DNA of 64,000 nucleotides. It comes from an uncultured Euryhalocaulis sp. (GTDB lineage: Bacteria > Pseudomonadota > Alphaproteobacteria > Caulobacterales > Maricaulaceae). Position numbers and translations under genes: made by a program. How positions within the stretch are numbered: the stretch's first letter is position 1; each line of letters begins with the position of its first letter. The stretch lies in assembly GCA_913055605.1 (NCBI GenBank), contig CAJXKJ010000003.1, positions 1 through 64,000 on the forward strand. Direction: 5' to 3'. Shown here one piece after another: positions 4,424-64,000 of this stretch. Below the pieces are notes generated by a model. It saw nothing but the letters and a program-made list of their open reading frames with translations, did no database searches and was not told the DNA's origin.

Positions 4424-4714
4424 ATGTCCGTGCGGGATCGCGCCCTTCTGGCGCTTCTCAAGACTTACAAGCTGACCGCATCGCCGGTGTTCACGGCGCT
4501 GGGCGCGCGCTGCCGCCATAGCCCGACCTGCAGCGAATACGCGGTGGAGGCGGTGCGCCGCCATGGCTGGATGCGCGGCGGCGCCATGGGCGCCGGCCGG
4601 CTGCTGCGCTGCCGCCCGGGCGGCACACATGGATACGACCCGGTCCCGCCGGCGGCGGGAGACGCGAGAAACGCGAGAGACCCAGGGGACGCAGGGGGCG
4701 CGCGTCATGCCTGA
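4424..4714 (+). CDS. yidD: Membrane protein insertion efficiency factor YidD
   Basis: Small YidC-associated protein (96 residues). The family core is intact: [27 protein letters not shown], then [19 protein letters not shown] and [13 protein letters not shown] 4424 follows an AGGGAACC ribosome site and gives the expected N-terminus. The last ~20 residues ([13 protein letters not shown]) are encoded by a 9-base tandem repeat and are not part of the conserved family. The stop overlaps the thrS start by 8 bases, so translation of the two is probably coupled. Confidence 0.93.
4662..4697 (+). repeat. Four degenerate 9-base tandem repeats at the end of yidD
   Basis: The units are ACGCGAGAA, ACGCGAGAG, ACCCAGGGG and ACGCAGGGG, starting at 4662, 4671, 4680 and 4689. 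They encode the residues DAR, NAR, DPG and DAG of the YidD tail. The final unit also supplies the AGGGGG ribosome site for thrS (start at 4707). Confidence 0.75.
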
Positions 4715-28165: not shown

Positions 28166-28174
28166 CGGCGCAGC

Positions 28175-30728: not shown

Positions 30729-30741
30729 CGCGCGCTCCCTG

Positions 30742-33842: not shown

Positions 33843-33887
33843 GAACCCGCTTCCCCGAGATTCGCCCCGCCAGTCTACAGCAGGATT

Positions 33888-34877
33888 CTACAGCACAGCC
33901 GGGTTAACGCCGCGACCCGCCGCGCCAGTCCCGCCGCGCCAGTCCATCTGGAGACGCAACACGGCCAGCGCCTGATCGATCCCGGTGACCGGCGGCGCGC
34001 CGGCGGCGATGTCGGCCAGCACGCGGGCGGCCTGGGCCGCATACATGTCGTTCAGATCCTCGGATGCGTCGGCGGTCTCCGCATCCGGCTGGCCGGGCAG
34101 GTGCAGGCGCACCGCGCCATCTTGAAGGTCCCATTCGATCGTCCCGCCGTCGCCGCTGATATGATAGCGGCGGCGGGGGATGCGCTGGATGTAATCGGTC
34201 AGCAGCACGCCTAGCGCGCCGGATTCGAAGCGCAGCGCGCAGGCCGCCACGTCTTCGGTTTCGATCTCCAGCGCGCCGCTATGGGCGACATGGCCGGTCA
34301 GCGAGGCCGGGCCCAGCAGCCAGGTCAGCAGGTCCAGCTCATGCGTATCCAGCACCGCGCCGCCGGCCTGGTCGGCGCGGGCGGCGTACATGCGGCGATA
34401 ATCCTCATAGGGGTGCCAGTCGGGCAGCCAGCCGCCGGCGATGACGCTGGCCCCGGTGACGCGCCCGATCCGCCCGGAATCCAGCCAGGACTTCATCGCG
34501 CTGAAGGCGGCGTGGAATTTCCAGTTGCTGCCCATATGCAGCCAGGCGCCGCGCTTGATCACCGCGCGCGCCATCATGTCGGCGTCGGCAAGATCGCTGG
34601 CCAGCGGCTTTTCCACCATGACGGCGCAGCGATGGGTCATGGCGCGGATCGCCTGGTCGGCGTGGAAGACATTGGGGCTGCAGACCACCGCCATGTCCGG
34701 CCCCTCCGCATAGGCGGCGTCCTCCGTCTCGAAGGTCTGGCCGCCGGTTTCGGATTCGAACCGGGCGCGGCGGTCGGCGCTGGGGTCGAAACCCAGGATC
34801 GCGTCCGCCCCGGCGGCGCGAAAGCAGCGCGCATGGCGCCGGCCGATCGAGCCGAGGCCAAGGATCAGAATTTTCAT
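33888..34877 (-). CDS. Gfo/Idh/MocA family oxidoreductase in the pse operon
   Basis: A 329-residue NAD(P)-dependent oxidoreductase. The Rossmann start KILILGLGSIGRRHARCFRAAG, VVCSPNVFHADQAIRAM and the EKPLASDL loop (MVEKP) are all present, with the C-terminal half typical of the family. The substrate is unknown. It is coupled by ATGA to pseC upstream, so it may act on a sugar intermediate or side group of the nonulosonic acid. Confidence 0.85.
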   Translation of the reverse strand: MKILILGLGSIGRRHARCFRAAGADAILGFDPSADRRARFESETGGQTFETEDAAYAEGPDMAVVCSPNVFHADQAIRAMTHRCAVMVEKPLASDLADADMMARAVIKRGAWLHMGSNWKFHAAFSAMKSWLDSGRIGRVTGASVIAGGWLPDWHPYEDYRRMYAARADQAGGAVLDTHELDLLTWLLGPASLTGHVAHSGALEIETEDVAACALRFESGALGVLLTDYIQRIPRRRYHISGDGGTIEWDLQDGAVRLHLPGQPDAETADASEDLNDMYAAQAARVLADIAAGAPPVTGIDQALAVLRLQMDWRGGTGAAGRGVNPAVL

Positions 34878-36136
34878 CCGGGACTCTGGCCGGGGATCGG
34901 GCGCCCCAGCGCCCGGGCCAGCGCGCCGACGGCGCGCGCGGCGTCGTCCTCACTCATGCCGGGGAAGCAGGGCAGGGTCAGGGCCTGGGCGTAATAGTCC
35001 TCGGCGTTCGGGAAACGCGCCTCGGCGCGGGGGAAGGCCGGCCGCCGCCATGGATGGCGGTAGAGCGGGATGTAATGGACCTGCGTGCCGACACCCTCGG
35101 CGCGCATGGCGGCCATCACGTCCGCGCGGCTGCGCCTGGCCCCGGCGAAATCGACGCGGACGGCGTAGAGGTGGTGGGCGGAGCGGGCGCGCATGGCCGG
35201 GTCGGCCTGCACGGGAGACACCCCGTCCAGCCCCGCCAGCATCCGGTCGTACCAGGACGCGATGTCCCTGCGCCGTTCGGTGAAGTCGTCCAGCCGCGTC
35301 AGCTGGGACGCGCCCAGGGCGGCCGCGATGTCGGTCATGCGGTAATTGAAGCCCAGCGCGTGCTGCTCATAAATCCAGGGGCCGCGCTCGGCGCCGATGA
35401 AATGCTCGGGATCGCGCTCCATGCCGTGATTGCGCAAGAGGCGCAGGCGGCGGGCGAATTCGTCGTCGTCGGTGGTGACCGCGCCGCCTTCGCCGGCGGT
35501 GATCGGCTTTACCGGGTGGAAGCTGAAACAGGTCATGGCGGCGGCCCCGCCGGACCCGACTTTGGAGCCGTCCGGGCGCGTTCCGCCGAGGGCGTGGCAG
35601 CCGTCCTCGATAATCGTGCGGCCCTGCGCGGCGGCGCGGAAATCGGCGTCCAGCGCCGACAGGCCGGCATAGGCGACCGGGATCACCGCGCGGCAGTCCG
35701 GCGTGGCGTCCAGATAGGCGGACAGCGCATCCGGGGAGAGGGACAGCGTGTCCGCGTCCACGTCCGCGAGGTCGGCGCGGGCGCCGGCATAGTCGATGCA
35801 GTTGGCGCTGGCCGCGAAGGTGATGGGCTGGGTCACCGCCGAGAAACCGGGGCCGAGGCCGGCGGCCAGACAGGCCAGGTGCAAAGCGGCGGTGCCGGAA
35901 TTGACCGCCACGGCGTGCTTCGCGCCGACATAGTCCGCCAGCGCCGCCTCGAACCGCGGCACGGCGGGACCCTGGGTCAGCAGATCGCCGCGCAGAACCT
36001 CCAGCACGGCGGCGATGTCGGCCTCGTTCAGGCTCTGGCGGCCATAGGGCAGGAAGTCGTCCGCAGCCGGGGCGGGACTGGAAGCCGGGGCCGGCTCCGA
36101 TGCAAGCGGGAGCGCGCGGGCGCTATTCGTCGACAA
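34874..36136 (-). CDS. pseC: UDP-4-amino-4,6-dideoxy-N-acetyl-beta-L-altrosamine transaminase
   Basis: PLP aminotransferase, second step of pseudaminic acid synthesis, 420 residues. DFLPYGRQSLNEADIAAV is the typical beginning, SGTAALHLACLAAGLG the PLP-phosphate region, and CFSFHPVKPITAGEGGAV holds the Schiff-base Lys. A ~25-residue Ala/Pro/Ser N-terminal extension precedes the core. The only start ahead of it is TTG 36136, overlapping pseB by 14 bases; a start nearer the DFLPYGRQ core would suit family length but is not evident. Confidence 0.93.
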   Translation of the reverse strand: MSTNSARALPLASEPAPASSPAPAADDFLPYGRQSLNEADIAAVLEVLRGDLLTQGPAVPRFEAALADYVGAKHAVAVNSGTAALHLACLAAGLGPGFSAVTQPITFAASANCIDYAGARADLADVDADTLSLSPDALSAYLDATPDCRAVIPVAYAGLSALDADFRAAAQGRTIIEDGCHALGGTRPDGSKVGSGGAAAMTCFSFHPVKPITAGEGGAVTTDDDEFARRLRLLRNHGMERDPEHFIGAERGPWIYEQHALGFNYRMTDIAAALGASQLTRLDDFTERRRDIASWYDRMLAGLDGVSPVQADPAMRARSAHHLYAVRVDFAGARRSRADVMAAMRAEGVGTQVHYIPLYRHPWRRPAFPRAEARFPNAEDYYAQALTLPCFPGMSEDDAARAVGALARALGRPIPGQSPG

Positions 36137-37241
36137 CCTCGGTCTCTTTGATCAGGCGCAGGATGTCGTCGACCGACAGCCATTCGGCGTTGTTGGCGCT
36201 GGTGTAGGAAAAGCCGGGTTCGACCTTGCGGCCCGGCTCGCCGTCGAATTCCGGCTCGGTCGCCTCATCCCACAGCTTGATCTGGGGCATGATGACGAAC
36301 TTGTCGTCGAACTCGTAGGTGAAGTGGCTCTCCTCCTCGGAGACCATGGCCTCGTCCAGCTTCTCGCCCGGGCGGATGCCGATGATCCTGCGCTCGCAAT
36401 CGGGGCAGATGGCGTCGGCCAGGTCGACGATGCGCATGGAGGGGACCTTTTTCACGAAGGTCTCGCCGCCTTCCATGATGCGCGCGCACTCGATCACGAA
36501 TTTCACGCCGTCCTCGATGGACAGCCAGAAGCGGGTCATGCGGTCGTCGGTGATGGTCAGCGCGCCGGTCTTGGCCTGTTTCAGGAAGACCGGGATGACC
36601 GAGCCGCGGCTGCCGATGACATTGCCGTAGCGGACGATGGAGAAGCGCGTGTCCTGCGCGCCGGCCATGTGGTTGGCGGCGATGAACAGCTTTTCCATGC
36701 AGGCCTTGGAGGAGCCGTACAGATTGATCGGCTTCACCGCCTTGTCGGTGCTGACCGCCACGACCTTGCGCACGCCGCGCTGGATGGCGACGCGGATGAC
36801 GTTTTCCGCGCCCAGCACGTTGGTCTTGATGCACTCCATCGGATTGTATTCGGAGGCCACGACCTGCTTCATCGCGGCGGCGTGGAACACGACGTCCACG
36901 TCCTTCATCGCGAAATTCAGCCGTTCGGGGTCGCGCACGTCGCCGATGAAGAAGCGCAGATTCGGGTGGTCGTCGAAGCGCTGGCCCATCCGGTATTGTT
37001 TGAACTCGTCGCGGGAGAACACGACGATCTTCTTCGGATTGTGCGCGGTCAGCGCCCGGTGGACGAAGGAATGGCCGAACGATCCGGTGCCGCCGGTGAC
37101 CAGGATGGTCTTGCCGTTCAGCGGATCGCCGCCGGGGTCTTCCTCCGGATTGGCGCCCTCTTCATGGCGTGGCAGGTTCGCCATCGCCGCTTCCAGCTTT
37201 TTCACCGGAAGGTCGCGCGCACGTTGAAACCCTAGCGCCAT
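36123..37241 (-). CDS. pseB: UDP-N-acetylglucosamine 4,6-dehydratase (inverting)
   Basis: First enzyme of the CMP-pseudaminic acid pathway, an SDR that dehydrates and inverts UDP-GlcNAc. It has 372 residues. KTILVTGGTGSFGHSFVHRAL near 49 is the NAD motif, FHAAAMKQVVASEYNPME the PseB signature, and VRYGNVIGSRGSVIPVF and RIIGIRPGEKLDEAMVSEEES follow. I chose ATG 37241 with AGGGA upstream; a GTG at 37277 would extend it. A ~45-residue N-terminal extension precedes the core. CPDCE near 277 is an unusual local cysteine pair. Confidence 0.94.
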   Translation of the reverse strand: MALGFQRARDLPVKKLEAAMANLPRHEEGANPEEDPGGDPLNGKTILVTGGTGSFGHSFVHRALTAHNPKKIVVFSRDEFKQYRMGQRFDDHPNLRFFIGDVRDPERLNFAMKDVDVVFHAAAMKQVVASEYNPMECIKTNVLGAENVIRVAIQRGVRKVVAVSTDKAVKPINLYGSSKACMEKLFIAANHMAGAQDTRFSIVRYGNVIGSRGSVIPVFLKQAKTGALTITDDRMTRFWLSIEDGVKFVIECARIMEGGETFVKKVPSMRIVDLADAICPDCERRIIGIRPGEKLDEAMVSEEESHFTYEFDDKFVIMPQIKLWDEATEPEFDGEPGRKVEPGFSYTSANNAEWLSVDDILRLIKETEVVDE

Positions 37242-48131: not shown

Positions 48132-50180
48132 CTAGCGCAGCGCGGCGGCGATATTGCCGCCGTCCACCGTGGTTACGCCGCCCGTGGTTTTCAGCGCCAG
48201 CGCCTGATGCAGGAAGGCCTCCGCCACGTCGTCCGCCGTGACTTCGAGGCCCAGCAGATTGCCGCCCATATAATCGGCCTCGCTGAGCCCGCGCGCCTTG
48301 GACCGGCTGGCGATCATGCCGTCCGTCAGGATGCCGGAGCGGATGCGGTCCGCGTTCACGGCGTTGGAGCGGATGCCCTGCGGCCCATAGTCCACCGCAT
48401 ATTGTCGCGACAGGAACAGGGTGGCGGCCTTGGGCAGGCCATAGGGGCCGAATTCCGGCCCCGGATTGATCGCCTGTTTCGATGCGTTGAACAGCAGCGC
48501 GCCGCCGGTCCCCTGCGCCAGCATGATCGCGATTGCGGCCTGCGCTGCGGCCTGATGGCCGAAGAAATTCAGCTCGAAACTCTGGCGCAGCGTCTCGGCG
48601 TCCACCTCCCCGATCTTTCCCTGCCAGGCCGCGCCGGCGTTGGAGACCAGGATGTCCAGCCCGCCGAATTCCGCGACGACCGCATGGAAGGCGGCCTGGA
48701 CGGAGGCCGCATCGGTGACGTCGCATTCCAGGCCGATGGCCGCCCCGCCGATTTCCGCCGCCGTGCGCCGGGCGGCGTCGCCGTCGCGGTCCAGCACCGC
48801 GACCTCCGCGCCGTTGGCCGCCAGGAGTTTCGCGGTGGCCGCGCCGATGGTGCCGGCGCCGCCGGTGATCGCCGCGATCTGGCGCTGAAGCGGCTTCTCG
48901 ACGGCCTTGCCGAGCTTGGCCTGCTCCAGCGACCAGTATTCCATGCAGAACAGCTCGTCCTCGGGCAGGGCCGCATATCGGCCGAACGCCTCGGCGTCCG
49001 AAATCACCGCCATGGTCGCCTCCGCCACGTCGGCGGCGACACGCGCGTCTTTCTTCGACTTGCCGAGGGCGAACAGGCCGAGGCCGGGCGCCAGCACGAT
49101 GCGCGGCATGGCGTCCAGCATCGCCTTCGGCGTGATGCGGCGGCCGGTCTGGCGCGCGAAATATTCGCGATAGCGGTCCGCATAGTCGGCGACCGCCCGC
49201 CGCACCGTGTCGGCGCTCCAGCCCGCATCGCTGTCTGCGGGGGGCAGGACCAGCGGCGTGTTCTTGGTGCGGATGATGTGGTCGGGCGTGACGACGCCGC
49301 GCCCGGCGATCTCCGCCAGATCCGGCCGGTCGACATAGGCCCGCACGGAATCCCCGCCGCGGAACTCCATCACCATGCGCCGCCACGCGCCGCCGCCCAG
49401 ACTTTCGGCGACCGCGCCGCGCAGGACGGGGGCGGCGGCAGCGAGCGCGGGTTCGGGCGTGTTGCGCAGCGCGGGCCGTGCGCGGCCGTTGGTTCTGGCG
49501 ATGCGCGCCTCGGCGCGGCTGACCATGTCGATCATCCGCTCATAGGCTTCCCGCGCCGTGTCGCCGAAGGTGAAGATCCCGTGCTTGTCCAGGATCGCGC
49601 CCTTGACCTGCGGCGCGCGGTCATAGGCGTCGGCCATGACCCTGGCGAGGTCGAAGCCGGGCATGACCCAGTCGATGAACGCCATCTCGCCGCCATAGAC
49701 CTCCTCATGCAGGTCGCGGCTGTTTTCCTGATCCACCAGCGACAGCACGGCGTTGGCGTGGGTGTGGTCGACGAATTTGTGCGGCAGGAAGGCGTGCAGC
49801 AGCGTCTCGACGGACGGGTTGGGCGCGGTGGAGTCCAGAAGCGCGATGCGCTGCTGGTTCACCATCTCCTCGTCGCTGAGCGCGTCCAGATCGCGCAGGC
49901 GGCGCAGCGGCGCCAGGCGCACCGCGGGCAGGCCGGCCGGTTCGATATCGCCCATGTCCCAGCCCGAGCCCTTCACGCACAGAACCTCGTGCGCATCGCC
50001 GAGCGCGTCGGTCACGGTGGTCTTTACCGAGGTGTTGCCGCCGCCATGCAGGACCAGCGCCGGGTCGCGGCCCAAAAGCCGGGACGTGTAGACGCGCAGC
50101 GCCAGGTCTTCATTCACGCCCTGCTGCGCATAGCGGGCGACATAGTCCTTTGCGTCGCTGTCCGACCATGCCGATTTCAT
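48132..50180 (-). CDS. Fused class II aldolase / short-chain dehydrogenase
   Basis: A 682-residue two-domain enzyme of the RhaD-type bifunctional aldolase/SDR family. Aldolase domain (~25-400): HGGGNTSVK at 45-53, Glu125, His139-Thr-His141 and His200 as predicted zinc and acid-base residues. SDR domain (~433-682): NAD loop TGGAGTIG at 439-446, NAG at 514-516, catalytic Ser567, Tyr580, Lys584. The expected reaction is ketose-1-phosphate cleavage to DHAP and an aldehyde that the SDR then oxidises or reduces. It is coupled by ATGA to mtnA. Confidence 0.9.
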   Translation of the reverse strand: MKSAWSDSDAKDYVARYAQQGVNEDLALRVYTSRLLGRDPALVLHGGGNTSVKTTVTDALGDAHEVLCVKGSGWDMGDIEPAGLPAVRLAPLRRLRDLDALSDEEMVNQQRIALLDSTAPNPSVETLLHAFLPHKFVDHTHANAVLSLVDQENSRDLHEEVYGGEMAFIDWVMPGFDLARVMADAYDRAPQVKGAILDKHGIFTFGDTAREAYERMIDMVSRAEARIARTNGRARPALRNTPEPALAAAAPVLRGAVAESLGGGAWRRMVMEFRGGDSVRAYVDRPDLAEIAGRGVVTPDHIIRTKNTPLVLPPADSDAGWSADTVRRAVADYADRYREYFARQTGRRITPKAMLDAMPRIVLAPGLGLFALGKSKKDARVAADVAEATMAVISDAEAFGRYAALPEDELFCMEYWSLEQAKLGKAVEKPLQRQIAAITGGAGTIGAATAKLLAANGAEVAVLDRDGDAARRTAAEIGGAAIGLECDVTDAASVQAAFHAVVAEFGGLDILVSNAGAAWQGKIGEVDAETLRQSFELNFFGHQAAAQAAIAIMLAQGTGGALLFNASKQAINPGPEFGPYGLPKAATLFLSRQYAVDYGPQGIRSNAVNADRIRSGILTDGMIASRSKARGLSEADYMGGNLLGLEVTADDVAEAFLHQALALKTTGGVTTVDGGNIAAALR

Positions 50181-51271
50181 TCGGCGGCCTCCCGCGCGAA
50201 CAGCGCGGCCAGATTGTGCGCATAGGGGGCGCGGACGATTCCGCGCTCGGTGATCAGGCCGGCGACCATGTCGTTCGGCGTGACGTCGAAGGCGGGGTTG
50301 CGGGTCTTGATCCCCTCCGGCGCGGTGCGGCGCGCGCCGAAGCTGGTGACCTCTTCCCCCGCGCGCTCCTCGATCGGGATTTCGGCGCCGGTGGGGCAGT
50401 CCATGTCGATCGTAGAGGACGGGCAGGCGACGTAAAATGGCACGCCGAAATGCCGCGCCAGAATGGCCACGCCCAGCGTGCCGATCTTGTTGGCGACGTC
50501 GCCGTTCGCCGCCACCCGGTCCGTCCCGGTGATGACCAGATCGATCTCGCCGCTCGCCATCATGTGGGCGGCCATATTGTCGGTGATCAGGGTGACGTCG
50601 ATGCCGGCGCGCTGCAGCTCCCAGGAGGTGATGCGCGCGCCCTGGAGCAGGGGCCGGGTCTCGTCGGCATAGACGCGGAACGCTACGCCGCGCGCATGGG
50701 CCAGATACATTGGGGCGGTCGCGGTGCCGGCGCCGGAGGTGGCGAGCGCCCCGGCGTTGCAATGGGTCAGCACGCCCATGCCGGGGCGGATCAGATCGGC
50801 GCCCGCCTCCGCCATGCCGCGGCACAGGGCCTGATCCTCGGCATGGATCGCCTCGGCCTCGTCGACCAGCGCGTCATACAAAGCGGCGGCGTCAGCGGCG
50901 GTCTCGCGTGCGGCGCGCGCCTGCATCCGGCGAAGGGCCCAGCCGAGATTGACGGCGGTGGGGCGGGAGGAATCGAGGAATTCAGCTTGGCGCGCGATCT
51001 TTTCGCGGAAATCGTCCGGCGCGCCGTCGCGATAGGGTTTCAGCGCGACGCAGAGCCCATAGGCGGCGGCGACGCCGATGGCCGGCGCGCCGCGCACTTT
51101 CAGCTGTTTGATCGCGTCCCAGACGTCCTGCGCCGTGTCCTGCCGCTGCATCGGGGCGTCCTGGGGCAGGCGGGTCTGGTCCATCAGGAACAGATCGCCG
51201 TCCCGCCATTCGATGGCGCGCGGCAGGTTGTCCCACAGCGCCTCTGCGCCGGTCTGGTCTGGTGTGGTCAT
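50177..51271 (-). CDS. mtnA: S-methyl-5-thioribose-1-phosphate isomerase family protein
   Basis: An aldose-1-phosphate to ketose-1-phosphate isomerase of the eIF2B-like fold, 364 residues. Catalytic Cys171 lies in LTHCNAGALATSGAGTA, Asp251 in ITGTDRVAANGDVANKIGT, and RGAPAIGVAAAYG binds phosphate. ATG 51271 is chosen. Usual MtnA acts on methylthioribose-1-phosphate (methionine salvage) or 5-deoxyribose-1-phosphate. It is placed between rfbA and the aldolase/SDR, with which it is coupled; the kinase or phosphorylase that would supply its substrate is not in the window. Confidence 0.9.
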   Translation of the reverse strand: MTTPDQTGAEALWDNLPRAIEWRDGDLFLMDQTRLPQDAPMQRQDTAQDVWDAIKQLKVRGAPAIGVAAAYGLCVALKPYRDGAPDDFREKIARQAEFLDSSRPTAVNLGWALRRMQARAARETAADAAALYDALVDEAEAIHAEDQALCRGMAEAGADLIRPGMGVLTHCNAGALATSGAGTATAPMYLAHARGVAFRVYADETRPLLQGARITSWELQRAGIDVTLITDNMAAHMMASGEIDLVITGTDRVAANGDVANKIGTLGVAILARHFGVPFYVACPSSTIDMDCPTGAEIPIEERAGEEVTSFGARRTAPEGIKTRNPAFDVTPNDMVAGLITERGIVRAPYAHNLAALFAREAAE

Positions 51272-53337: not shown

Positions 53338-53491
53338 CTGTCCTGAACGCTGTTCGGGCCGCCGCGGGCGCCGCGGCCCATCGCCAGCGGCGGGGTATAG
53401 ACGCTAGGACCCGGCGAGCCAATTCGCTGCGGCGCTGGGCGCGCGCGGCGTGTTAGGCTGCCGGACCGTTCCGGGAGGGAGATCGAAGTTC

Positions 53492-54124
53492 ATGCCGCTG
53501 ACCGCATTTGTTCGCCATGTCCTGACGCTGACGCCCGCGCTGGCCGCACTGTCGCTGCTGGCCGGATGCGGACGCCCCGATGCGTTCGCCACGCTGGACG
53601 AGGCGTCGCCGGAGAGCGGCCATTGGGGATTCGCCGACGAAGTCGTGGTCGAGGCGACGGACGAGGCGCCGGTGCTGGAGGGCTGGAGCCCGGTGGCGCT
53701 GCGCCCGACCAGCGAGCGGACGACCCACCGGGTGGGATGGGTCGTGGATGCGGCCGAGGGGCCGGGCCGCTACCGCGCCCGGGCCTGGGTGCGCGCGGAG
53801 AGCGACGCGGACGCCGACGCGCTGCTGGAGATCGGCGGCGGCTATGAGGCGACCAACACGGTCAACGAATACGGCGTCGCCTATTTCGATCTGGGCGAGG
53901 TCCGGACGGACAATCCGTACCGGATTCCCGAGAGCGACCTGCTGGCCGATCCGGCCATCGAAACCGACGGGGCGTGGCGCGTGATTTCCGGCGAGCTGGA
54001 GCTGGACGGCGAACAGGTCTTCGTCACGGTCGGCATCGTGTCCTATGACGCGAACGCCTTTCCCGGCGAGCGGCGCCTGACGCTGACGCTTGGGGGGATC
54101 GAGGTCGAGCGGCTGGACGAATAG
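53492..54124 (+). CDS. Lipoprotein paralogue A, function unknown
   Basis: A 210-residue lipoprotein with signal peptide and lipobox (LSLLAGCGRPD). A soluble, mostly beta domain follows: HWGFADEVVVEATDEAPVLEGWSPVALRPTS, RYRARAWVRAES, NEYGVAYFDLGEV, GAWRVISGELELDGEQVFVTVGIVSYDANAF, LTLGGIEVERLDE. It aligns along its whole length with the protein at 55390, which has exactly the same length. The pair flanks a TylF-type methyltransferase. GGGAGGGA precedes ATG 53492. No known family is recognised. Confidence 0.7.
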   Translation: MPLTAFVRHVLTLTPALAALSLLAGCGRPDAFATLDEASPESGHWGFADEVVVEATDEAPVLEGWSPVALRPTSERTTHRVGWVVDAAEGPGRYRARAWVRAESDADADALLEIGGGYEATNTVNEYGVAYFDLGEVRTDNPYRIPESDLLADPAIETDGAWRVISGELELDGEQVFVTVGIVSYDANAFPGERRLTLTLGGIEVERLDE

Positions 54125-55228: not shown

Positions 55229-55389
55229 CAAACGAGGCTGCACATGGCGATCCGGCGCGGTCCGGAGCGGGCGCATTTCCATTGAGCGTTCCGGGCAAGT
55301 CAAGGCGTCACGCGCCCACCAAGTGTTTGCTGGTCCGGTGGATTGGTTGCGTGTTACATGGCGCGCCGCGGACAGGGGACAGGGAAGCC

Positions 55390-56022
55390 ATGACCAGCGT
55401 TGCGGAATGGGCGGGCAGAACGGCGGCGGCGGCGTTCGCCGCGATGCTGTGCCTCGGCGCGAGCGCGTGCCAGGAGGACGATCCGGAAGTCGACGCGCTC
55501 CAGGAGCTGATGACGCTGGGCCGGCCGGTCTCCGCGGTCTGGAGCTATGCCGACGAGATCGTTGTCACCGAAGGTGAGGGCGAAGCCGCCCTGGCAAACT
55601 GGCGGCCCATCGTCGTCGCGCCGACGCAGACCAGCGGCATGCACCGCATCGGCATGATCGCGGCGCCCTATGTGCACCGGCTGAACGTCTGGCTGCGCGC
55701 CGAGGGCGATCTGGGCGTGATGCTGGAAATGGGCACCGCCCCGATTTCGGCGAACGAATTCTCCGAATACGGCGCGGCGTTTTTCGATCTGGACGCCATG
55801 GACGTGGTCGACGGGCCGACGGGGCCGGCGACGCTGATGGACCCGGAGATCCGGCGCGAAGGCGACTGGATCGTGGTCAGCGGCGCCCTGTCGCCGCAGG
55901 TGGGGCCGATCGTGATGACGCTCGGCCTGACCTATGACGACATTCACTTGTTCGAAGGCCGGGAGGGCCAGGCCCTCACGATCGGCGGCGTCGAAATGGT
56001 CCAGGATCCGGTCGAGGAATAG
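55390..56022 (+). CDS. Lipoprotein paralogue B, function unknown
   Basis: A 210-residue lipoprotein (signal peptide, then LGASACQEDD as lipobox). The soluble part matches paralogue A: AVWSYADEIVVTEGEGEAALANWRPIVVAPTQ, RLNVWLRAEGDLGVMLEMGT, NEFSEYGAAFFDLDAMD, GDWIVVSGALSPQVGPIVMTLGLTYDD, LTIGGVEMVQDPVEE. Gene duplication is clear by eye. It is convergent with the Nudix gene. No family is recognised. Confidence 0.7.
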   Translation: MTSVAEWAGRTAAAAFAAMLCLGASACQEDDPEVDALQELMTLGRPVSAVWSYADEIVVTEGEGEAALANWRPIVVAPTQTSGMHRIGMIAAPYVHRLNVWLRAEGDLGVMLEMGTAPISANEFSEYGAAFFDLDAMDVVDGPTGPATLMDPEIRREGDWIVVSGALSPQVGPIVMTLGLTYDDIHLFEGREGQALTIGGVEMVQDPVEE

Positions 56023-56038: not shown

Positions 56039-56743
56039 CTAGACCAGCCCGCGCAGGCGGGCTTGGAGGAAGGCGCCGAGGGTGAAGCTGTCGGTGATCT
56101 CGCCGGCGCGGATCATGTCTTCCATTTCGGCGGGGGAAACGAGGCGCACGCCGGTGATCCCCTCGTCTAGGGCCGGGTCGCCGTGCGACAGCAGTTCGGC
56201 CAGATAGAGCCGCACGCCCAGCCCCATGAAGCCGGTGGCCCCGAACATGGGGCCGAGGAAGGTGAGCGCGCCGATGCGCCCGCCGATCTCCTCGGCGATC
56301 TCGGTGCGGGCGGTGTCCTCCTCGCTGGCGCCCGGCTCGATGGCGCCGCGCGGGATTTCCCAGTGCCATTGCGCCGTCGGATGGCGGTAATGGTGCAGCA
56401 GCAGGATGCGCCCTTCGGTCACCGGCAGGATCACGACGCCGGCGGGCTCGCCCTCATAGCGCAGGGTGCGGTGATGGATGCCGGCGCTGCCGTCCGGGAA
56501 GATCACCGCGTCGCGCAGGACCAGAAGATAGGGGTCGCGGTAATGCAGGCCGACCTCCGCCCAGGCGCGGTCCTGTCCGCGCGCGGCGTAGCGGTCGCCC
56601 ATTTCGGCCTCGATCTCCGCGATGCGCTTCGGATCGAGGACGAGGCGCAGCCCGTCGGGCCGGTCGGCGAACCAGTGCGGCCGCTCCTGCGCCAGGCGGA
56701 AATACTCCTCCAGACGCGATTCCAGCGGCCGGGAGCGCGTCAT
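56039..56743 (-). CDS. Nudix-fold hydrolase
   Basis: A 234-residue protein with a Nudix domain in the C-terminal two-thirds (GVVILPVTEGRILLLHHYRHPTAQWHWEIPRGAIEPGASEEDTARTEIAEEIGGRIG). The box departs from GX5EX7REUXEEXGU at two sites (Ala instead of Glu, Thr instead of Arg), while TEIAEE keeps the three catalytic glutamates. The N-terminal half (LDPKRIAEIEAEMGDRY) is additional. It may hydrolyse a nucleotide sugar. It overlaps the upstream 652-residue gene by ATGA. Confidence 0.85.
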   Translation of the reverse strand: MTRSRPLESRLEEYFRLAQERPHWFADRPDGLRLVLDPKRIAEIEAEMGDRYAARGQDRAWAEVGLHYRDPYLLVLRDAVIFPDGSAGIHHRTLRYEGEPAGVVILPVTEGRILLLHHYRHPTAQWHWEIPRGAIEPGASEEDTARTEIAEEIGGRIGALTFLGPMFGATGFMGLGVRLYLAELLSHGDPALDEGITGVRLVSPAEMEDMIRAGEITDSFTLGAFLQARLRGLV

Positions 56744-58698
56744 GCGCTCAGCCCGTCCTCCGCAGCCGGAATGCGTCCGGTGACCACGGCCAGCAGCGGC
56801 TTGCCCGAGGGCGCGCGCGAGCCCAGCCCGATCAGGCGGCCGAGGAAGGTGAGAGCGAGGCGGACCAGCGCGATCAGCCGCCCGATCAGCCCGCCGCCGC
56901 GCGCCCGTCCGGCGAACCGGTCCGTGGCGGCGGCGTAGCGCAGGTCGCGCATCGCGCCTTCCTCGATCCGGATGGAGAAGCCGTCCAGCCGGCCGTGCAG
57001 GGACAAGAGGCCGCGCAGCTGGCGGTCCACCCATTCCTCGTCGCCCGTATAGCCGGCGGCGTGCAGCAGCACGGTGACCGGGGCGCCGGGCGCCAGCGCG
57101 CCGGAGACATGGTCGATCAGCAGCGAGTGATCGATGGTCGGGTACAGGGCCTCGCCGCGCAGTCCCAGCTCGCGCCGGGGGCGGACATAGACCAGCGCCC
57201 CGGCCGCGTGCGGCGGGCCCGTGAGCCGCCAGGCCAGCGCCACCTCGGGCTCGATGGAGCGCCAAGCGGGGTCGGTCGGCGGGAAGGCCAGGTCCGGCCA
57301 TTCGCCGGGCGCGGCCAGGATCAGCGCGGGCTTGCCGTTCAGCTCCGCCTTCAGCCGCTCGGCCTCGGCCTCCAGCAGCGGGGTTGCGGGCGCGTCGGCG
57401 TGCAGGCGCGCGGGGCGGAACGGCGCGCCGAACAGCAGGCGGCGCAGCCCGGCCAGCTTGCGCTTTCCGGCGCGCGCCATGCGCTTGGCGGCCATCGCGC
57501 GGCGGCGGTCGTTTGTCGGGTGGTTCAGATCGTCCAGCGTGATCCGGTTGTCGAACTCGACCGGCTTTGGCTGGTCCGGCTTGTGATTATTGCGGTGGAT
57601 GCGCCAGGCCGCGCAGCCATAGATCCAGTAATACTGGCCGGCATGATGGCTGGGCGGGTTCACGCCTTCCATGAATGTGTCGAAATAGGTCTGGAAGCCT
57701 GTCTCCGCCGCCGCGACTTTCGCCGGCGGGGAGGCACCGGAGCGCAGCGTGATGACGCGCCGCCCGGTGTCCAGATGCTCGGCGGTCAGCCATTCGTTCA
57801 TGCAGGCCTGGCGCTCGTCCTCCTCCCGCTCCCCGATGGAGATGAACTCCGCCTCCGCGGCGCGGGGCTGCAGCTCCAGGATGAAGGCGTCGTCGCTGTC
57901 CTGGATCAGATATTGCGGCTCCCCCGGGCAGTATTCCGGCACGAACGTGTAGTCGCAGGGCCCGTTGATCTCGGTCACCACGCGCGTCGGCTGCAGGCAG
58001 AACATGAAGGCCTTGAAGAACCGCCCCAGCTGGGTGTGGGCGTCGACCTTCCACAGCATCTGGCTGGGCATGGAGGTCCAGCAGGCGTCCTGATTCACCG
58101 TCTTCGCGACGTGGTGCGGGTGGGTGTAGCGGAAGGACAGGTCGACCAGCGCGCGCGGCGGGGCGGCCAGCGGCGCCTCCGGCCCCGCGCGCCAGGAATC
58201 CAGGATTTCCTCCGCCTGTTCCGACACCGCGCGCAGCGTGCCGGTGATGATCACCTTGTGGTCGGCCGCGATCAGGTCCGCCAGATGGTCGAATGCGCCG
58301 TTCGACAGCACGAAATCGGCGTTCCAGAACACGAACCACGTGCTGGTCATCGCCGCGCCGAAAAAGGCGACGCCGCGGGTGAAGGCGAGGGTCAGCGTGG
58401 TGGAGTAGTGGCCCGGCGAGATCAGGTCGTCGATCATGATGTAGCGGACCGACGCATGCCGCCGAATCTCCGCCATCAGAGGCAGCGCCTCGAAATGCGC
58501 ATCGTCCCCGGCGCAGGTCAGGACCACCAGTTCGACGTCGCAGCGGCGCGCCAGAGCGGGCAGGTTGCCCTTGGCCAGAAAAGAGCTTAGGCCGAACCGC
58601 TCGAACCGTTTAATGTATTCGCCGCCCCATACGGCGATCAGGATTTTCACCTTTTTGCGCGCCACCGCGTCGGACCGTCGGGAGTTCATGGCAGACAT
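56740..58698 (-). CDS. 652-residue unknown protein, possible glycosyltransferase-like fold
   Basis: The N-terminal ~300 residues resemble a GT-A-type fold by pattern: KILIAVWGGEYIKRFERFGLSSFL, VRYIMIDDLISPGHYSTTLTLAF, STWFVFWNADFVLSNGAFDHLADLIAADHKVI (a D-type motif in NADFV). Further features are DACWTSMPSQMLWKVDAHTQLG and EINGPCDYTFVPEYC. The C-terminal part has RPRRELGLRGEALYPTIDHSLLIDH and a late hydrophobic, basic segment (LIGRLIALVRLALTFLGRLIGLG). I do not recognise a family. Its position among Nudix, FkbM and TylF genes suggests surface glycan synthesis. Confidence 0.6.
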   Translation of the reverse strand: MSAMNSRRSDAVARKKVKILIAVWGGEYIKRFERFGLSSFLAKGNLPALARRCDVELVVLTCAGDDAHFEALPLMAEIRRHASVRYIMIDDLISPGHYSTTLTLAFTRGVAFFGAAMTSTWFVFWNADFVLSNGAFDHLADLIAADHKVIITGTLRAVSEQAEEILDSWRAGPEAPLAAPPRALVDLSFRYTHPHHVAKTVNQDACWTSMPSQMLWKVDAHTQLGRFFKAFMFCLQPTRVVTEINGPCDYTFVPEYCPGEPQYLIQDSDDAFILELQPRAAEAEFISIGEREEDERQACMNEWLTAEHLDTGRRVITLRSGASPPAKVAAAETGFQTYFDTFMEGVNPPSHHAGQYYWIYGCAAWRIHRNNHKPDQPKPVEFDNRITLDDLNHPTNDRRRAMAAKRMARAGKRKLAGLRRLLFGAPFRPARLHADAPATPLLEAEAERLKAELNGKPALILAAPGEWPDLAFPPTDPAWRSIEPEVALAWRLTGPPHAAGALVYVRPRRELGLRGEALYPTIDHSLLIDHVSGALAPGAPVTVLLHAAGYTGDEEWVDRQLRGLLSLHGRLDGFSIRIEEGAMRDLRYAAATDRFAGRARGGGLIGRLIALVRLALTFLGRLIGLGSRAPSGKPLLAVVTGRIPAAEDGLSA

Positions 58699-58830: not shown

Positions 58831-60993
58831 ATGGGGCGTATGGACGTGTCGCGGCCGGACGAGGCGTTTTTCGACTGCGCCTTCGTCTGGACGCCGAGGG
58901 AGCTGGCCGGCGACGAGCCCTACGCCGTTCTGGTCGATGACAAGTCCGCGCCCTTCACGCCTGATCTGATCCGCACCTGCCGCGGCGCGGCGGGGTTTCA
59001 GGCGGTGGTCACCGACCCGGCCGATGTTCCGGCCGGCGCGGTGGCGATCTGCGACGGCCCGACCTGGGTGCGCCAGCACGAGGCGATGACCGCCGCCGGG
59101 GTGCGCGGCCCGCGCGCCCGGGTGCTGCTGTATTTCGACGTCGACCCGTCCGGCTTCTGGGATTTCGCGGAGGCCTGCGGCGACCGGCTGGGCGAAATCT
59201 TCCATGAGGGCGGCGCGACGGCGCAGTCGGCGGAGGCGATCGCGCCCTTCCTGGAGCACTGGAGCGGCTCGCGCCTGGTGAACCAGCGCCTGCTGCCCTA
59301 CGCCCGGTTCTACACCCGCGATTTCTATCCGCTGCACCAGGAGAACGCCGACAAGATCGTGCGCATCCTGGCGGCCTTCGCCGATGACGAGAGCCGCGCG
59401 GCCTATGCGCGCATCCTGTTCGGCACGGCCGAGCAGGTGGTCTCCCATTTCTCCGGCTCGGTCTTCGGGGCCCAGCAATATATGGAGATCGTGGAGCCGC
59501 AGCCGGGCGACGTGATCGTCAATTGCGGCGTGGGACGGGGCTGGGAGCTGCCCTATTTCCTGGCGCGGCTGCAGGGCGCGGGGGAGATCCACAATATCGA
59601 CCCCAACATGGTCTATTGGAGCAGCCATTTCGCGGACTTCATCCACCGCTTCCCGAACATCGTGAAGGACCACCCGATCATCGTCGGGGACAAGGACGGC
59701 CAGATTTCGCTGAGCCTGGTCGATTCCGGGATGATCGTGTCGGCCGGCGAAAGCTCCGGCGAGGGGTCGCAGACCTTCGATATCCGCAAGCTGGATTCGC
59801 TGGTCGAAGAGGGCGTGATCCCGCGCATCGACTATCTGAAAATGGACGTCGAGGGCGGCGAGAAATCGATCCTGGCCGGGGCGGTCGAGGCGATCCGCAA
59901 GCACCGGCCGAAACTGGCGGTCGCGATCTATCACGAGCCGGAGCATTTCTGGGACTATCCGGCCTTCATCCTCGACAATTTCCCGGACTATCGCCTGTAT
60001 CTGCGCCAGTACGGCTATTCGCGCTTCGAGACGCTGCTCTATGCGGTGCCGGCGGAGGCGGAGGACCGGTCCGGGACTGAGGGGCTGACCGGGATCGCCC
60101 CGGCGCCGCGGCGGGCCGGAACGCAGGATCTGGCGCTGTTCTACGCCCATGACGCGCCGGACGCGCCGCGCGATTTCTATGTGAAGCCGATCCGCGCGCT
60201 GACGCGGCATTGCGGCGTGGACTGGCAGGGCGCGGACATCGCCCCCGGGCCCTATATCGACGCCGAAACCGTGGCGGGCGCGATCGAGACGCCGGCCGGC
60301 AATGTCATCCTGACCAGCCACCGCGCCGAAGACGGCGCCATGCGCGCCACGGTCGGCGTCGCCGGCCGCTCGTCGGACGTATCCTGGGCCCACGCGGTCT
60401 GGATGCCGGACGGCGGCCAGTGCGGGCCGGTCGATTCCGCCGACGGCAAGGTGCGCTTCTATACCTGGTCGCCGGAGCCGGGCCTGCTGGACGTCTACAC
60501 GCTGGATGGCGAGGCGATGTCGCAGGATTCCAGCACGAAGCTGCGCAAGGCCCCGATTCTGGTCCGCCAGGACGAAAACGGCGCGGCGGCGCTGATCGTG
60601 GGCGAGGGCGGGCAGGGCGTCTGGGCCGCCGCCGACGGCGGGGAAACGCCGGTCGACCTGCCGGCCGGGACGCCGCTGGGCGCGGTCGCGGTCAAGCGGC
60701 CCTATCGCGCCGATTCGCCCAGCGCGGCGGGTCTGGGCGTGCTGTCCCCGGACGGGGCGACGCTGGACGTTTATGTCAGCGCGGATGGCGACTGGTCGCT
60801 GGCGGCCAGTTTCGACTGGGATTCGCGCCTGAATCTGGTCCCGACGCTGATCGCGTCGGGCACGGTCGCCGCGCCGGCCCGCGAGGGATGGCGCGACACG
60901 GTGCTGCAGGCCGCCGGCGCCGTGGGCGCGGAGGGGCTGGTGCGCGGCCTGGCCGCGCGGGTGCGCAAGCTGACGGGCAAGTCCTGGCGCTGA
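58831..60993 (+). CDS. FkbM-methyltransferase-containing protein, tandem paralogue 1
   Basis: A 720-residue protein. Residues ~5-120 form a unique domain (FFDCAFVWTPRELAGDEPYAVL; RVLLYFDVDPSGFWDFAEACGD). The FkbM methyltransferase lies about 210-420: PGDVIVNCGVGRGWELPYFLARLQG, IHNIDPNMVYW, IDYLKMDVEGGEKSILAGAVEAI, RKHRPKLAVAIYHEPEHFWDYP, YLRQYGYSRFETLLYAVP. The last ~300 residues are beta-rich with repeated V-Y-x-L-D-G-like strands, possibly a propeller. AGGGGGA upstream supports ATG 58831. SAM-dependent methylation of a sugar or lipid is likely; the acceptor is unknown. Confidence 0.8.
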   Translation: MGRMDVSRPDEAFFDCAFVWTPRELAGDEPYAVLVDDKSAPFTPDLIRTCRGAAGFQAVVTDPADVPAGAVAICDGPTWVRQHEAMTAAGVRGPRARVLLYFDVDPSGFWDFAEACGDRLGEIFHEGGATAQSAEAIAPFLEHWSGSRLVNQRLLPYARFYTRDFYPLHQENADKIVRILAAFADDESRAAYARILFGTAEQVVSHFSGSVFGAQQYMEIVEPQPGDVIVNCGVGRGWELPYFLARLQGAGEIHNIDPNMVYWSSHFADFIHRFPNIVKDHPIIVGDKDGQISLSLVDSGMIVSAGESSGEGSQTFDIRKLDSLVEEGVIPRIDYLKMDVEGGEKSILAGAVEAIRKHRPKLAVAIYHEPEHFWDYPAFILDNFPDYRLYLRQYGYSRFETLLYAVPAEAEDRSGTEGLTGIAPAPRRAGTQDLALFYAHDAPDAPRDFYVKPIRALTRHCGVDWQGADIAPGPYIDAETVAGAIETPAGNVILTSHRAEDGAMRATVGVAGRSSDVSWAHAVWMPDGGQCGPVDSADGKVRFYTWSPEPGLLDVYTLDGEAMSQDSSTKLRKAPILVRQDENGAAALIVGEGGQGVWAAADGGETPVDLPAGTPLGAVAVKRPYRADSPSAAGLGVLSPDGATLDVYVSADGDWSLAASFDWDSRLNLVPTLIASGTVAAPAREGWRDTVLQAAGAVGAEGLVRGLAARVRKLTGKSWR

Positions 60994-61126
60994 GCCGCCG
61001 GCCCGCCGCCCGGCTGTGGCCGCGGCGCCCCGGCTCTGCTGATACAGCCGCCGGCGCGTGGATTTCGCCCGGATTATTTGCTTAAGCTTCGCTCCGAAAA
61101 AGACTTTCTGTCAGACAGCCGAGATC

Positions 61127-63256
61127 ATGACGCCTCCTTCCACCGCCGCCGCCCGAACCCTGCCCGACGCCGAACCCGATGGCGGCCTGTCCGAGCGGGA
61201 GGCGTTTTTCGACTGCACCTTCATCTGGGCGCCGCGCGAAATGACCGGCGATCAGCCTTATGTGATCTTCGAGGACGGGAAGTCCGAGTCCTTTACCCGG
61301 ACGCTGATCCTGGCGGTGCGCGGGGAGGACAATTGCCGCGGCGTGATCAATTCCGCCGCCGAGGTCCCGTCCGATCCGGACGTGCTGGTGATCTGCGAGG
61401 CGCCGGTTTGGCAGCGCAATTGCGTGGCGCTGAACCGCGCCGGGGTGCGCGGCGCCCGGGCGCTGGCGGTGCTGTATTTCGACGTCGACCCGTCCGGCTA
61501 TTGGGATTTCGCCAAGGGCTGCGGCGATTCGCTGGCCGAAATCTTCCATGACGGCGGCGTGGACGCGACATCCATCGCAGGCGTCGCGGAATTTCTGGAG
61601 ATGTGGACCGGCGCCCGTCCGTCGAACGGTCGGATCGTGCCGCTGTCGCGTTTCTACACCCGCGATTTCCTGCCGCTGCAGATCGAGAAGGGCGAGGCGA
61701 TAGCCCGCGTGATGGCGGCGATGGCCGACGACGAAAGCCGCGCCCATTACGCCCGCATCCTGTTCGGCACCGCCGAACAGGTCTTCACCGCCTTCACCCA
61801 GCAGGTGTTCGGCCCGCAGCAATATATGGAGATCGTGGAGCCCAAGCCCGGCGACGTGATTCTGAATTGCGGCGTCGGCCGGGGCTGGGAGATTCCCTAT
61901 TTCCTGTGCCGGATGAAGGGCGAAGGGGCGATCCACAATATCGACCCGAACATGCAGTTCGCTTCCACGCCCTATGGCGACTTCATCGAGTCCTTCCCCG
62001 ATGTGGTGGTCAATCACCCGATCATCGCAGGCGACCAGGACGGCGAGCTGAGCTTCGCGATGACCGACGGGGGCATGATCGTCTCCGACGCCACGCGCGA
62101 CACCAATGCGGCCGACGACGAGCGCACGACCTATACCTGCCGCAAGATCGACACCCTGATGGAGCAGGGCCTGGCCGACCGGCTGGACTATCTGAAGATG
62201 GACGTGGAGGGCGGCGAGCTGTCCATCCTTCGCGGGGCGATCGGGGCGATCAAGAAATACCGGCCCAAGCTGGCGGTCGCGATCTATCACGAGCCGCACC
62301 ATTTCTGGGAATACCCGGCCTATCTGCTGGACGAGCTGGAGGACTATCGCTTCTACGTCCGCCAGTACGGCTATTCGCGGTTCGAGACGCTGCTGTACGC
62401 CGTTCCCGCCGAGGCCACGCTGACCGCCTCCGGCGGCGAGCGGCTGCGCCGGGGTCCCACCACGCGCAAGACGGCGGAGGGCGCCGGCGATCCGCTGGTC
62501 GTGGCCTATTTCCGCGATGCGCCGGACGCCGCGCGCCAATTCTACGCCGGCACGCCGCGCACGGTGGCGCGCCTGTTCGGCGTGGACTGGGAGACCGCGG
62601 AGATCACGCCGATTCCGCAGGTGGAGGCCGACCGCCTGTGCGGCGTGGTGGAGACGCCGGACGGCGCGGTGCTGGTCACCATGCACGAACAGGAACCCGG
62701 CAAGATGTCCGTGATCGCCGGGGTCAGCCCGTCCCCGACCTCGCTGAAATGGGTCGCCAGCCGCGGCGTCGCCCCGGACGCGGCCTGCGCCGTGGCCGCC
62801 GGTCCCGACGGGAAGGCGCGCATCGTGCTGCAGGACCCGGGTTCGAACACCGCCGCGATGTACGCGCTGAAGGGCGGCGATCTGTCCCATGAGCGGGCCT
62901 TCGTCCTGCATGATACACCGCTTGCGGCGTGGATGACGGGCCGGGAGCTGCACATGATTTGCCGAAGCGCTGATGACGGCAGGCCGCTGAAGGCGGTGCT
63001 TTCGCCGAGCGCGGAAGGGGTCGCGCTTTCGGAGACCTCGCTTCCTTCCGGTACTTTCGAAGGTCTGGTGACGTTGAAGCGCAATGGCGCGGCCGGACCG
63101 GAATATTCGCGCGGCTACGCCATGCGCGAAGGGGATACGGTGCAGATCTACGAAGCCGATGGCGACGGATATGCGCCGGTGACCGGCATCGCATGGGACG
63201 AGCGGTTCATGCTCGCCCCGACGCTGGTCGCCGCCCCCTATGCCGGGGACCAGTAA
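61127..63256 (+). CDS. FkbM-methyltransferase-containing protein, tandem paralogue 2
   Basis: A 709-residue paralogue of the preceding gene, with the same order: EAFFDCTFIWAPREMTGDQPYVIF; LYFDVDPSGYWDFAKGCGD; FYTRDFLPL; ARILFGTAEQVFTAF; PGDVILNCGVGRGWEIPYF; LKMDVEGGELSILRGAIGAI; AVAIYHEPHHFWEYP; then a beta-rich C-terminus. The central methyltransferase regions match nearly word for word, while the C-terminal thirds diverge more. ATG 61127 is chosen; an earlier ATG (61058) would add unconserved residues. It is 36 bases upstream of the dioxygenase gene. Confidence 0.8.
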   Translation: MTPPSTAAARTLPDAEPDGGLSEREAFFDCTFIWAPREMTGDQPYVIFEDGKSESFTRTLILAVRGEDNCRGVINSAAEVPSDPDVLVICEAPVWQRNCVALNRAGVRGARALAVLYFDVDPSGYWDFAKGCGDSLAEIFHDGGVDATSIAGVAEFLEMWTGARPSNGRIVPLSRFYTRDFLPLQIEKGEAIARVMAAMADDESRAHYARILFGTAEQVFTAFTQQVFGPQQYMEIVEPKPGDVILNCGVGRGWEIPYFLCRMKGEGAIHNIDPNMQFASTPYGDFIESFPDVVVNHPIIAGDQDGELSFAMTDGGMIVSDATRDTNAADDERTTYTCRKIDTLMEQGLADRLDYLKMDVEGGELSILRGAIGAIKKYRPKLAVAIYHEPHHFWEYPAYLLDELEDYRFYVRQYGYSRFETLLYAVPAEATLTASGGERLRRGPTTRKTAEGAGDPLVVAYFRDAPDAARQFYAGTPRTVARLFGVDWETAEITPIPQVEADRLCGVVETPDGAVLVTMHEQEPGKMSVIAGVSPSPTSLKWVASRGVAPDAACAVAAGPDGKARIVLQDPGSNTAAMYALKGGDLSHERAFVLHDTPLAAWMTGRELHMICRSADDGRPLKAVLSPSAEGVALSETSLPSGTFEGLVTLKRNGAAGPEYSRGYAMREGDTVQIYEADGDGYAPVTGIAWDERFMLAPTLVAAPYAGDQ

Positions 63257-63292
63257 GTTCCACGCCCTGCAAGCAATTTCCAGGAGCCGGAT

Positions 63293-64000
63293 ATGCCTGA
63301 TCTGAAAACCATGGACGATGTCGTCAGCGCCGATGTGCCGGTGCTGGAAGGGGCCGAGGCGGTCGCGCCGGACGCGCTGTTCGCGGACGGCGTGCGCGAC
63401 GAGAACGCCTTCGGCGGCGCCCTGGGCCTGCGCAAGGGGCCGGCCTTCACCGATTCCGAGCGGGACCGGATGAAGGAAATGATCAAGGCGCACCTGGTCG
63501 ATACGGCGAAGGGCTTTTCCGCCGACGCGGCGGCCGAGGTGCGGGCCGTCGATCTGGAGCTGTATCACGAGATTTCCGACCGCCTGGACCACCGCCAGCT
63601 GTTGTCCAAGAAGGGCCGGATCATGACCGACGAGGCCGTTCAGGAAATGAAGGGCATGTCGTTCTTCGACTATGCCCGCAAGGCGTTCGGCGCGGATCAC
63701 TATCTGTCCGACGAGGAAGGGATCGGCCACGAACAGGTCTGCCTGCGCGTGGTGCGCCCGAATGTGCGCGAGGATGTGGGCTCCCTGCACGCCGACCACT
63801 GGTTCTGGGAGCATTACGACTGGGCGCCGCCGCCGGGCGAGGGCCGCACCAAGATGTGGATGGGCGTGTGCGTGGACGGGGTTCAGAACGGTCTGCGCCT
63901 GGCCCCGGGGTCGCACCGCGAAAACCGCCCATACCGGGTGGTCCGCGACGGCCACAAGATCGCCTTCGCACCGGATTTCGACCTCAACACGCTGGACCTG
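63293..64000 (+). CDS. Phytanoyl-CoA-dioxygenase-like protein, N-terminal 236 residues (runs off right edge)
   Basis: The open frame from ATG 63293 (after CAGGAGCC) has no stop before the end of the window. LHADHWFWEHYDW carries the H-x-D iron ligands, and KMWMGVCVDGVQNGLRLAPGSHREN is the strand-and-loop region typical of phytanoyl-CoA-dioxygenase-type Fe(II)/2-oxoglutarate enzymes. The downstream second His and Arg are outside. The N-terminal ~150 residues (LGLRKGPAFTDSERDRMKEM, DLELYHEISDRLD) are particular to this protein. It probably belongs with the FkbM pair. Confidence 0.75.
   Translation, partial: MPDLKTMDDVVSADVPVLEGAEAVAPDALFADGVRDENAFGGALGLRKGPAFTDSERDRMKEMIKAHLVDTAKGFSADAAAEVRAVDLELYHEISDRLDHRQLLSKKGRIMTDEAVQEMKGMSFFDYARKAFGADHYLSDEEGIGHEQVCLRVVRPNVREDVGSLHADHWFWEHYDWAPPPGEGRTKMWMGVCVDGVQNGLRLAPGSHRENRPYRVVRDGHKIAFAPDFDLNTLDL

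Follow-up and report, generated by a model that had tools for sequence, protein, structure and literature searches.

The 64,000-base stretch analyzed here (the window), which comprises bases 1 to 64000 of a 131,894-base contig of an uncultured Euryhalocaulis sp., carries two adjacent genes, A and B, encoding large FkbM-family methyltransferases with a domain arrangement that is real and rare. Each protein joins an N-terminal domain, a helical linker, an FkbM core and a propeller-like C-terminal part (Table 1), and homology searches indicate that the unusual element is the last of these, about 260 to 290 residues long. A dioxygenase gene, D, follows B, and a gene for a protein without a family match (the divergent protein) lies on the opposite strand, upstream of A. 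Matches in a second genome indicate that the dioxygenase, the divergent protein and an FkbM giant are a specific set shared by two genera, Euryhalocaulis and Phenylobacterium. What has been found so far is a domain architecture within a well-known enzyme family.

The sequence-only reading had described two adjacent FkbM paralogues of about 710 residues, and this was borne out. Both frames are intact, are separated by 133 bases and have a coding-type GC content by codon position (0.70/0.49/0.90 in A and 0.67/0.48/0.86 in B). Residues 241 to 397 of A (E = 2.3e-15, 57.6 bits) and 262 to 416 of B (E = 8.7e-14, 52.5 bits) match PF05050 above its curated cut-off of 22.7 bits, and TIGR01444 scores 48.8 and 46.8 bits, respectively, against a cut-off of 37.7. 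FkbM is the sole Pfam domain recognized in either protein at E <= 1, and the sole PHROGs match for both is a methyltransferase. Furthermore, A, B and the Phenylobacterium protein are identical throughout N231-C-G-V-G-R-G237 and K337-M-D-V-E-G-G-E344; we take the glycine segment to be that binding S-adenosylmethionine (SAM) and the second to be the (K)xDxEGxE motif of FkbM proteins. Their conservation is in keeping with an active SAM-dependent enzyme of the FkbM family. Hydropathy gives no indication of a transmembrane segment in A or B: the highest 19-residue means are 1.14 and 0.88, respectively, and the usual threshold is about 1.6. An amphipathic membrane helix at the C terminus of A, as in WbdD, was also considered and found to be unsupported, as 347 of 2000 shuffles reached the observed moment and B has no such tail.

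Over 692 aligned columns, 47.5% of the residues of the two proteins are identical (BLAST E = 0.0), which is far beyond chance, and there is a marked gradient along their length. Identity is 54% in the N-terminal domain (84/156), 67% in the helical linker (38/57), 65% in the FkbM core (122/188, with a best block of 61/79, or 77%) and 33% in the C-terminal part (84/258). The earlier description of nearly identical centers with diverging ends therefore holds for the gradient and fails for the near-identity. In each of the three members known, the C-terminal part has diverged much more strongly than the core, with 22 to 24% identity to the Phenylobacterium protein and 20 to 33% across the three. 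It nevertheless retains 33 invariant positions, including the charged residues R447, R455, R459, E486, H497, D602, K622, R623 and D664. An altered acceptor binding in A and B, as proposed before, is a plausible reading of this divergence.

The rarity of the arrangement resides in this C-terminal part, for which there is no Pfam, NCBIfam or PHROGs match. Within its own genome, the domain has no further copy besides A and B at E <= 1, and among 94 loci (several of which are overlapping copies of window pieces) it was found only in A, B and the Phenylobacterium protein; one partial match among them, L071, is a cut piece of A. The genome samples scanned, here and for the N-terminal domain below, partly overlap and gave no full-length relative other than the Phenylobacterium protein. 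Of 99 genomes from relatives (the own one counted), 22 matched at E <= 0.001, and outside the own genome these matches were short and weak; among 299 genomes of the order, only the own genome matched at E <= 1e-20. A scan of genome contigs for two exact seven-residue patterns, which misses relatives lacking those peptides, recovered one relative, in a Phenylobacterium metagenome-assembled genome (locus L028), with 40% identity over residues 3 to 673. In the family to which L028 belongs, three of 199 genomes matched at E <= 1e-15, and only that of L028 did so at full length. In plasmids (PLSDB), tblastn with A returned three records, all of them matches of the FkbM core with 15 to 17% coverage. 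Searches of the open-access literature, which leaves most subscription papers outside, found no description of an FkbM architecture with a propeller or dioxygenase, nor of FkbM together with capsular polysaccharide, O-methylation, ABC transporter and glycosyltransferase, and broader listings, judged by titles and opening lines of abstracts, had nothing on the arrangement; in the sole paper retrieved for FkbM and propeller, the propeller was a flagellum.

The N-terminal domain is a different case. It had been described as unrecognized and unique; it has indeed no name in Pfam, where the N-terminal part gave no convincing family for any of nine aligned rows (best E = 0.068, in one row), but a restriction to A and B was ruled out, as it is present in FkbM proteins of about 400 residues in other Pseudomonadota. 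A profile of 692 positions, built from A, B and the Phenylobacterium protein, matched at E <= 1e-15 in 11 of 385 genomes of the class and 15 of 398 of the phylum (own included), and the proteins matched are FkbM proteins, several of them of about 400 residues. All the other matches of that profile end by position 427, and many span only part of the core. In BLAST with A, three of these relatives (loci L032, L033 and L043, of which L063, L064 and L065 are longer stretches) align from residue 22 to about 410 with 28 to 30% identity, and the alignment supports homology along the whole N-terminal domain; a fourth (L034, with L066 as the longer stretch) aligns only from residue 174, and the genome match of L067 covers profile positions 30 to 415. 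A length of about 400 residues is consequently not unusual for an FkbM protein, since other Pseudomonadota carry the same N-terminal domain and core. The added domains had been called notable against the usual FkbM length, and this stands for the 260 to 290 C-terminal residues alone.

The order of N-terminal stretch, linker and FkbM core is probably present in a solved structure, the FkbM protein of Methylobacillus flagellatus (2py6, 409 aa), because this protein aligns collinearly over the helical linker and core (nine-row profile positions 179 to 406 against chain residues 177 to 407, E = 7.3e-18) and leaves about the same length of chain on its N-terminal side. The sequence match is limited to that part of the chain, and the N-terminal model is poor. 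Proteins of the 2py6 type stop after the FkbM core, whereas A, B and the Phenylobacterium protein continue into the C-terminal part. In two of the genomes with relatives of about 400 residues, the genes concerned directly adjoin an RmlD-like reading frame (regions L063:8588-10690 and L064:9010-11292).

The sequence-only reading had also placed a phytanoyl-CoA-dioxygenase-like gene 36 bases after B, and D begins exactly there, past the stop codon of B. D scores 27.0 bits for PF05721 (PhyH), for which the cut-off is 22 bits, and keeps an HxD...H arrangement (H166, D168 and H255), which we take to be the iron triad typical of Fe(II)/2-oxoglutarate oxygenases and which is invariant in D and its Phenylobacterium homologue (44% identical, E = 1e-75). 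D differs from other PhyH-family dioxygenases in that its closest form was found only in its own genome and in Phenylobacterium: at E <= 1e-15 this form occurs in one of 289 genomes of the class, the own one, which contains no second dioxygenase of this form at E <= 0.01. Searches for a solved relative by sequence returned none at E <= 1.

The co-occurrence of FkbM giant and dioxygenase in other genomes, the check proposed in that reading, was found once, at the Phenylobacterium locus, so the case named there as a refutation, a co-occurrence that is not conserved, did not arise. The stretch of L028 that was read covers 18,271 of the 34,258 bases of its contig, and the genes of the Euryhalocaulis contig from 26 kb onward served as queries. 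Ten of its open reading frames (ORFs) match genes of that contig at E <= 1e-8: two divergent-type proteins (1e-79 and 5e-133 to their best partners), an exporter pair, the dioxygenase, the FkbM giant, an ORF related to two small genes of the window, and RmlD-like, HldE-like and methyltransferase proteins. The exporter, HldE-like, RmlD-like and methyltransferase matches weigh little because these families are common. The gene order differs: next to the divergent protein, which is divergently oriented at both loci, come A, B and D in the window and D and a single FkbM giant in L028, where the D homologue is directly upstream of the giant and the longest frames overlap (D ends at 10013, and the giant starts at 10004). 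In L028, some 5 kb separate the exporter pair from the dioxygenase. At the far end of that stretch, the translated ORF at L028:17377-18270 looks by eye like a VirD4/TraG coupling protein, which, if we are right in this, could mean a mobile setting.

With regard to the history of the pair, the simplest reading is that the gene was duplicated in tandem once this lineage had separated from the Phenylobacterium form. In a tree of nine rows, built on the N-terminal and FkbM parts only, A, B and the L028 protein form a clade with 100/100 support and A and B appear as sisters with 87/90, below the level starred by the tool, in agreement with the earlier suggestion of tandem duplicates; one outgroup row is long and another has a deviating composition. 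The proportions of identical codons at conserved fourfold residues of A and B (0.58 to 0.67) lie within the shuffled range (shuffled-codon maxima of 0.65 to 0.71), so that synonymous sites are near saturation. For this reason, dating the duplication by synonymous changes was dropped, and the ratios of nonsynonymous to synonymous change, about 0.5 (N-terminal), 0.4 (FkbM) and 1.1 (C-terminal), are not readable as selection.

The C-terminal part of A (residues 425 to 681) folded alone gave a model with a mean predicted local distance difference test score (pLDDT) of 62.5 and a predicted template modeling score of 0.66. From model residue 57 onward it contains 16 predicted strands, grouped four by four by order alone, with a pLDDT of 66 to 86 across most of residues 61 to 240 and of 54 to 62 at 191 to 210. 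Most of the 50 structures listed by Foldseek and VIA-align are, to judge from their titles, presumably beta-propellers. The highest Z is that of the Pseudomonas pseudaminidase 2w38 (Z = 9.5, root-mean-square deviation 4.3, 207 residues aligned, 10% identity), with lectins, sialidases, spliceosome and WD40 proteins within one Z unit, a distance at which structures are regarded as tied. Since the best structures are tied, and since according to the tool a best Z of 7 to 8 is usual even for models that match nothing clearly, we call the domain propeller-like and leave the blade number aside. Several sugar-binding propellers are among the best structures (2w38, RSL, AFL and Photorhabdus lectins), which is suggestive only: the likeness to sialidase-type and fucose-lectin-type propellers concerns the predicted strand arrangement, and identity in the structural alignments to 2w38, AFL, RSL and PLL2 is 8 to 10% (RSL 9 and 7, AFL 10, PLL2 8). 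Against viral models, Foldseek gave 13 rows at E <= 0.001, mostly uncharacterized proteins.

We give about an even chance to the proposal that A and B work in the cytosol as SAM-dependent O-methyltransferases of a surface polysaccharide, with a glycan-binding propeller and a hydroxylating D. The polysaccharide would be made by this cluster, exported by its ATP-binding cassette (ABC) transporter and modified by A and B; we infer methylation of an exported surface polysaccharide from the cluster context, in which sugar genes occur with an ABC exporter. The FkbM core would transfer the methyl group, and the C-terminal small beta-propeller would most likely bind the acceptor glycan or, alternatively, hold the enzyme on the assembly complex. 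The C-terminal divergence between A and B could then translate into action on different residues or chain ends. D would probably hydroxylate this acceptor glycan or a sugar precursor of it, and the methyl group may then go onto the hydroxyl so formed. If the propeller reads glycan, these would be methyltransferases with a built-in sugar reader. Divergent protein, dioxygenase and FkbM giant, conserved in two genera, offer a compact testable set in the search for a new polysaccharide modification.

It is important to consider the observations that weigh against this proposal. The full-length model of A is poor (mean pLDDT of 46.5, from three sequences), the first 56 residues of the C-terminal model are unreliable, and its confidence is moderate. 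Many non-sugar propellers, such as WD40 proteins and 6-phosphogluconolactonases, score nearly as high as the sugar-binding ones, so the fold of the C-terminal part gives no function. The co-occurrence with the dioxygenase rests on one other locus. Additionally, the ABC-2 exporter pair is some 52 kb past D, distant from A and B, and other methyltransferase genes are present in both the Euryhalocaulis and the Phenylobacterium regions, so that any target assigned to A and B is tentative.

The strongest alternative, less probable and still a real possibility, is that the propeller is a protein-docking platform, for the divergent glycosyltransferase-like protein, the export complex or a protein substrate, with any sugar specificity residing elsewhere, in the FkbM core or the N-terminal domain. 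The top Foldseek rows include propellers from protein complexes (G-beta, nucleoporins, and MEP50 from the PRMT5:MEP50 methyltransferase), the divergent gene is the other constant neighbor, and the fast C-terminal divergence also fits co-evolving partners; sialidase-type and fucose-lectin-type propellers, however, rank equally high. We regard it as unlikely that the substrate of A and B is not a polymer but a precursor (a nucleotide sugar or a lipid-linked one) or a glycan carried by a protein, for example the pseudaminic acid of flagellin. Pseudaminic acid genes are on the same contig, and FkbM-family enzymes occur in glycan-modification clusters, including flagellin glycosylation islands (PMC5109656 and PMC6993521). 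Nevertheless, the genes beside the FkbM giant in Phenylobacterium include sugar genes and an ABC-2 exporter, and no pseudaminic acid gene of the contig matches an ORF in the 18,271-base L028 stretch at E <= 1e-8, although such a pathway may lie in the rest of that contig. It is highly improbable that the fused C-terminal part is in decay or has no function, as the open frame and the invariant positions, charged ones included, are kept in all three members, despite the low identity of this part and its absence from the relatives of about 400 residues.

Under the polysaccharide proposal, the closest known systems include the chain-terminating methyltransferases of ABC-transporter-dependent O-antigens, some of which have extra modules; according to PMC11231755, ORF6 of Klebsiella O7 has a predicted carbohydrate-binding module. 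Like WbdD and ORF6, A and B are methyltransferases whose cluster includes an ABC exporter. In contrast, they have no kinase or other terminator domain in the Pfam search, and the exporter ATPase of this contig (262 aa, ABC_tran at residues 48 to 179) is too short for the glycan-binding tail of WbdD-type exporters; other ABC transporters in the genome were not looked for. We therefore do not claim that A and B belong to the chain-terminator group, and a propeller that reads glycan would mean a targeting of polysaccharide methylation unlike the WbdD type. A more elaborate scenario, which we regard as a long shot, is that D hydroxylates a sugar carbon without a hydroxyl and the propeller-fused methyltransferase caps it. 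The two paralogues would then recognize different glycan contexts and thereby determine the chain end or the pattern, with no need of a coiled-coil ruler or of a glycan-binding tail on the exporter. On a 3-deoxy-D-manno-octulosonic acid (Kdo) 3-hydroxylase, nothing was retrieved from the open-access literature.

Regarding the surroundings, the divergent protein has no significant match to a family (best Pfam E = 0.44, below cut-off) and no credible solved relative (best E = 0.61). A WNADF motif suggests that it may be glycosyltransferase-like, in which case it may represent an undescribed glycosyltransferase family. The same unnamed family has a second copy farther along the contig; the conserved N-terminal region of about 360 residues has no convincing Pfam or PDB match and occurs in 10 of 289 genomes of the class at E <= 1e-10 (own included), in frames of different lengths. 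In six stretches around divergent-type proteins in four genomes (L089-L094), the three best contig matches of each ORF never include A, B or D, and nothing there matches the profile of the C-terminal part or that of the dioxygenase at E <= 1. Thus, the divergent protein does not depend on A, B or D.

Table 1. Features of the window and of the contig beyond it (contig coordinates).
Feature	Position	Strand	Description
Gene A	58831..60993	+	720 aa, FkbM methyltransferase of four parts
A, N-terminal domain			residues about 10-165
A, helical linker			residues 166-222
A, FkbM core			residues 223-410
A, C-terminal propeller-like domain	60103..60873	+	residues about 425-681, folded alone
Gene B	61127..63256	+	709 aa, paralogue of A, same four parts
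Gene D	63293..64150 (window part 63293..64000)	+	285 aa, PhyH-type Fe(II)/2-oxoglutarate dioxygenase; ends beyond the window
Divergent neighbor	56740..58698	-	652 aa, no family match; 132 bases upstream of A
Divergent-type protein, second copy	93386-95158	+	same unnamed family
PseF, PseI, PseG, PseC, PseB	26373-37184	-	pseudaminic acid genes by family match; only PseI and PseB above NCBIfam cut-off
Aldolase/dehydrogenase and MtnA	48132-51271	-	between RmlC and RmlA genes
Small gene 1	53450-54124	+	lipoprotein-like by eye
Small gene 2	55282-56022	+	lipoprotein-like by eye
ABC-2 exporter pair	about 116.6-118.2 kb		beyond the window

Besides the pseudaminic acid genes, matches to RmlA and RmlC are found inside the window, and the contig beyond it contains further methyltransferases and an HldE-like kinase/cytidylyltransferase in addition to the exporter pair. 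Rfam gave no match at gathering score anywhere in the window. Between the RmlC and RmlA genes are genes for a bifunctional aldolase/short-chain dehydrogenase and a methylthioribose-1-phosphate isomerase (MtnA), an odd place for a salvage pair. Lastly, the two small genes flank a TylF-like methyltransferase gene, have no Pfam match above cut-off and are both matched by one L028 ORF, at 4116-4892.

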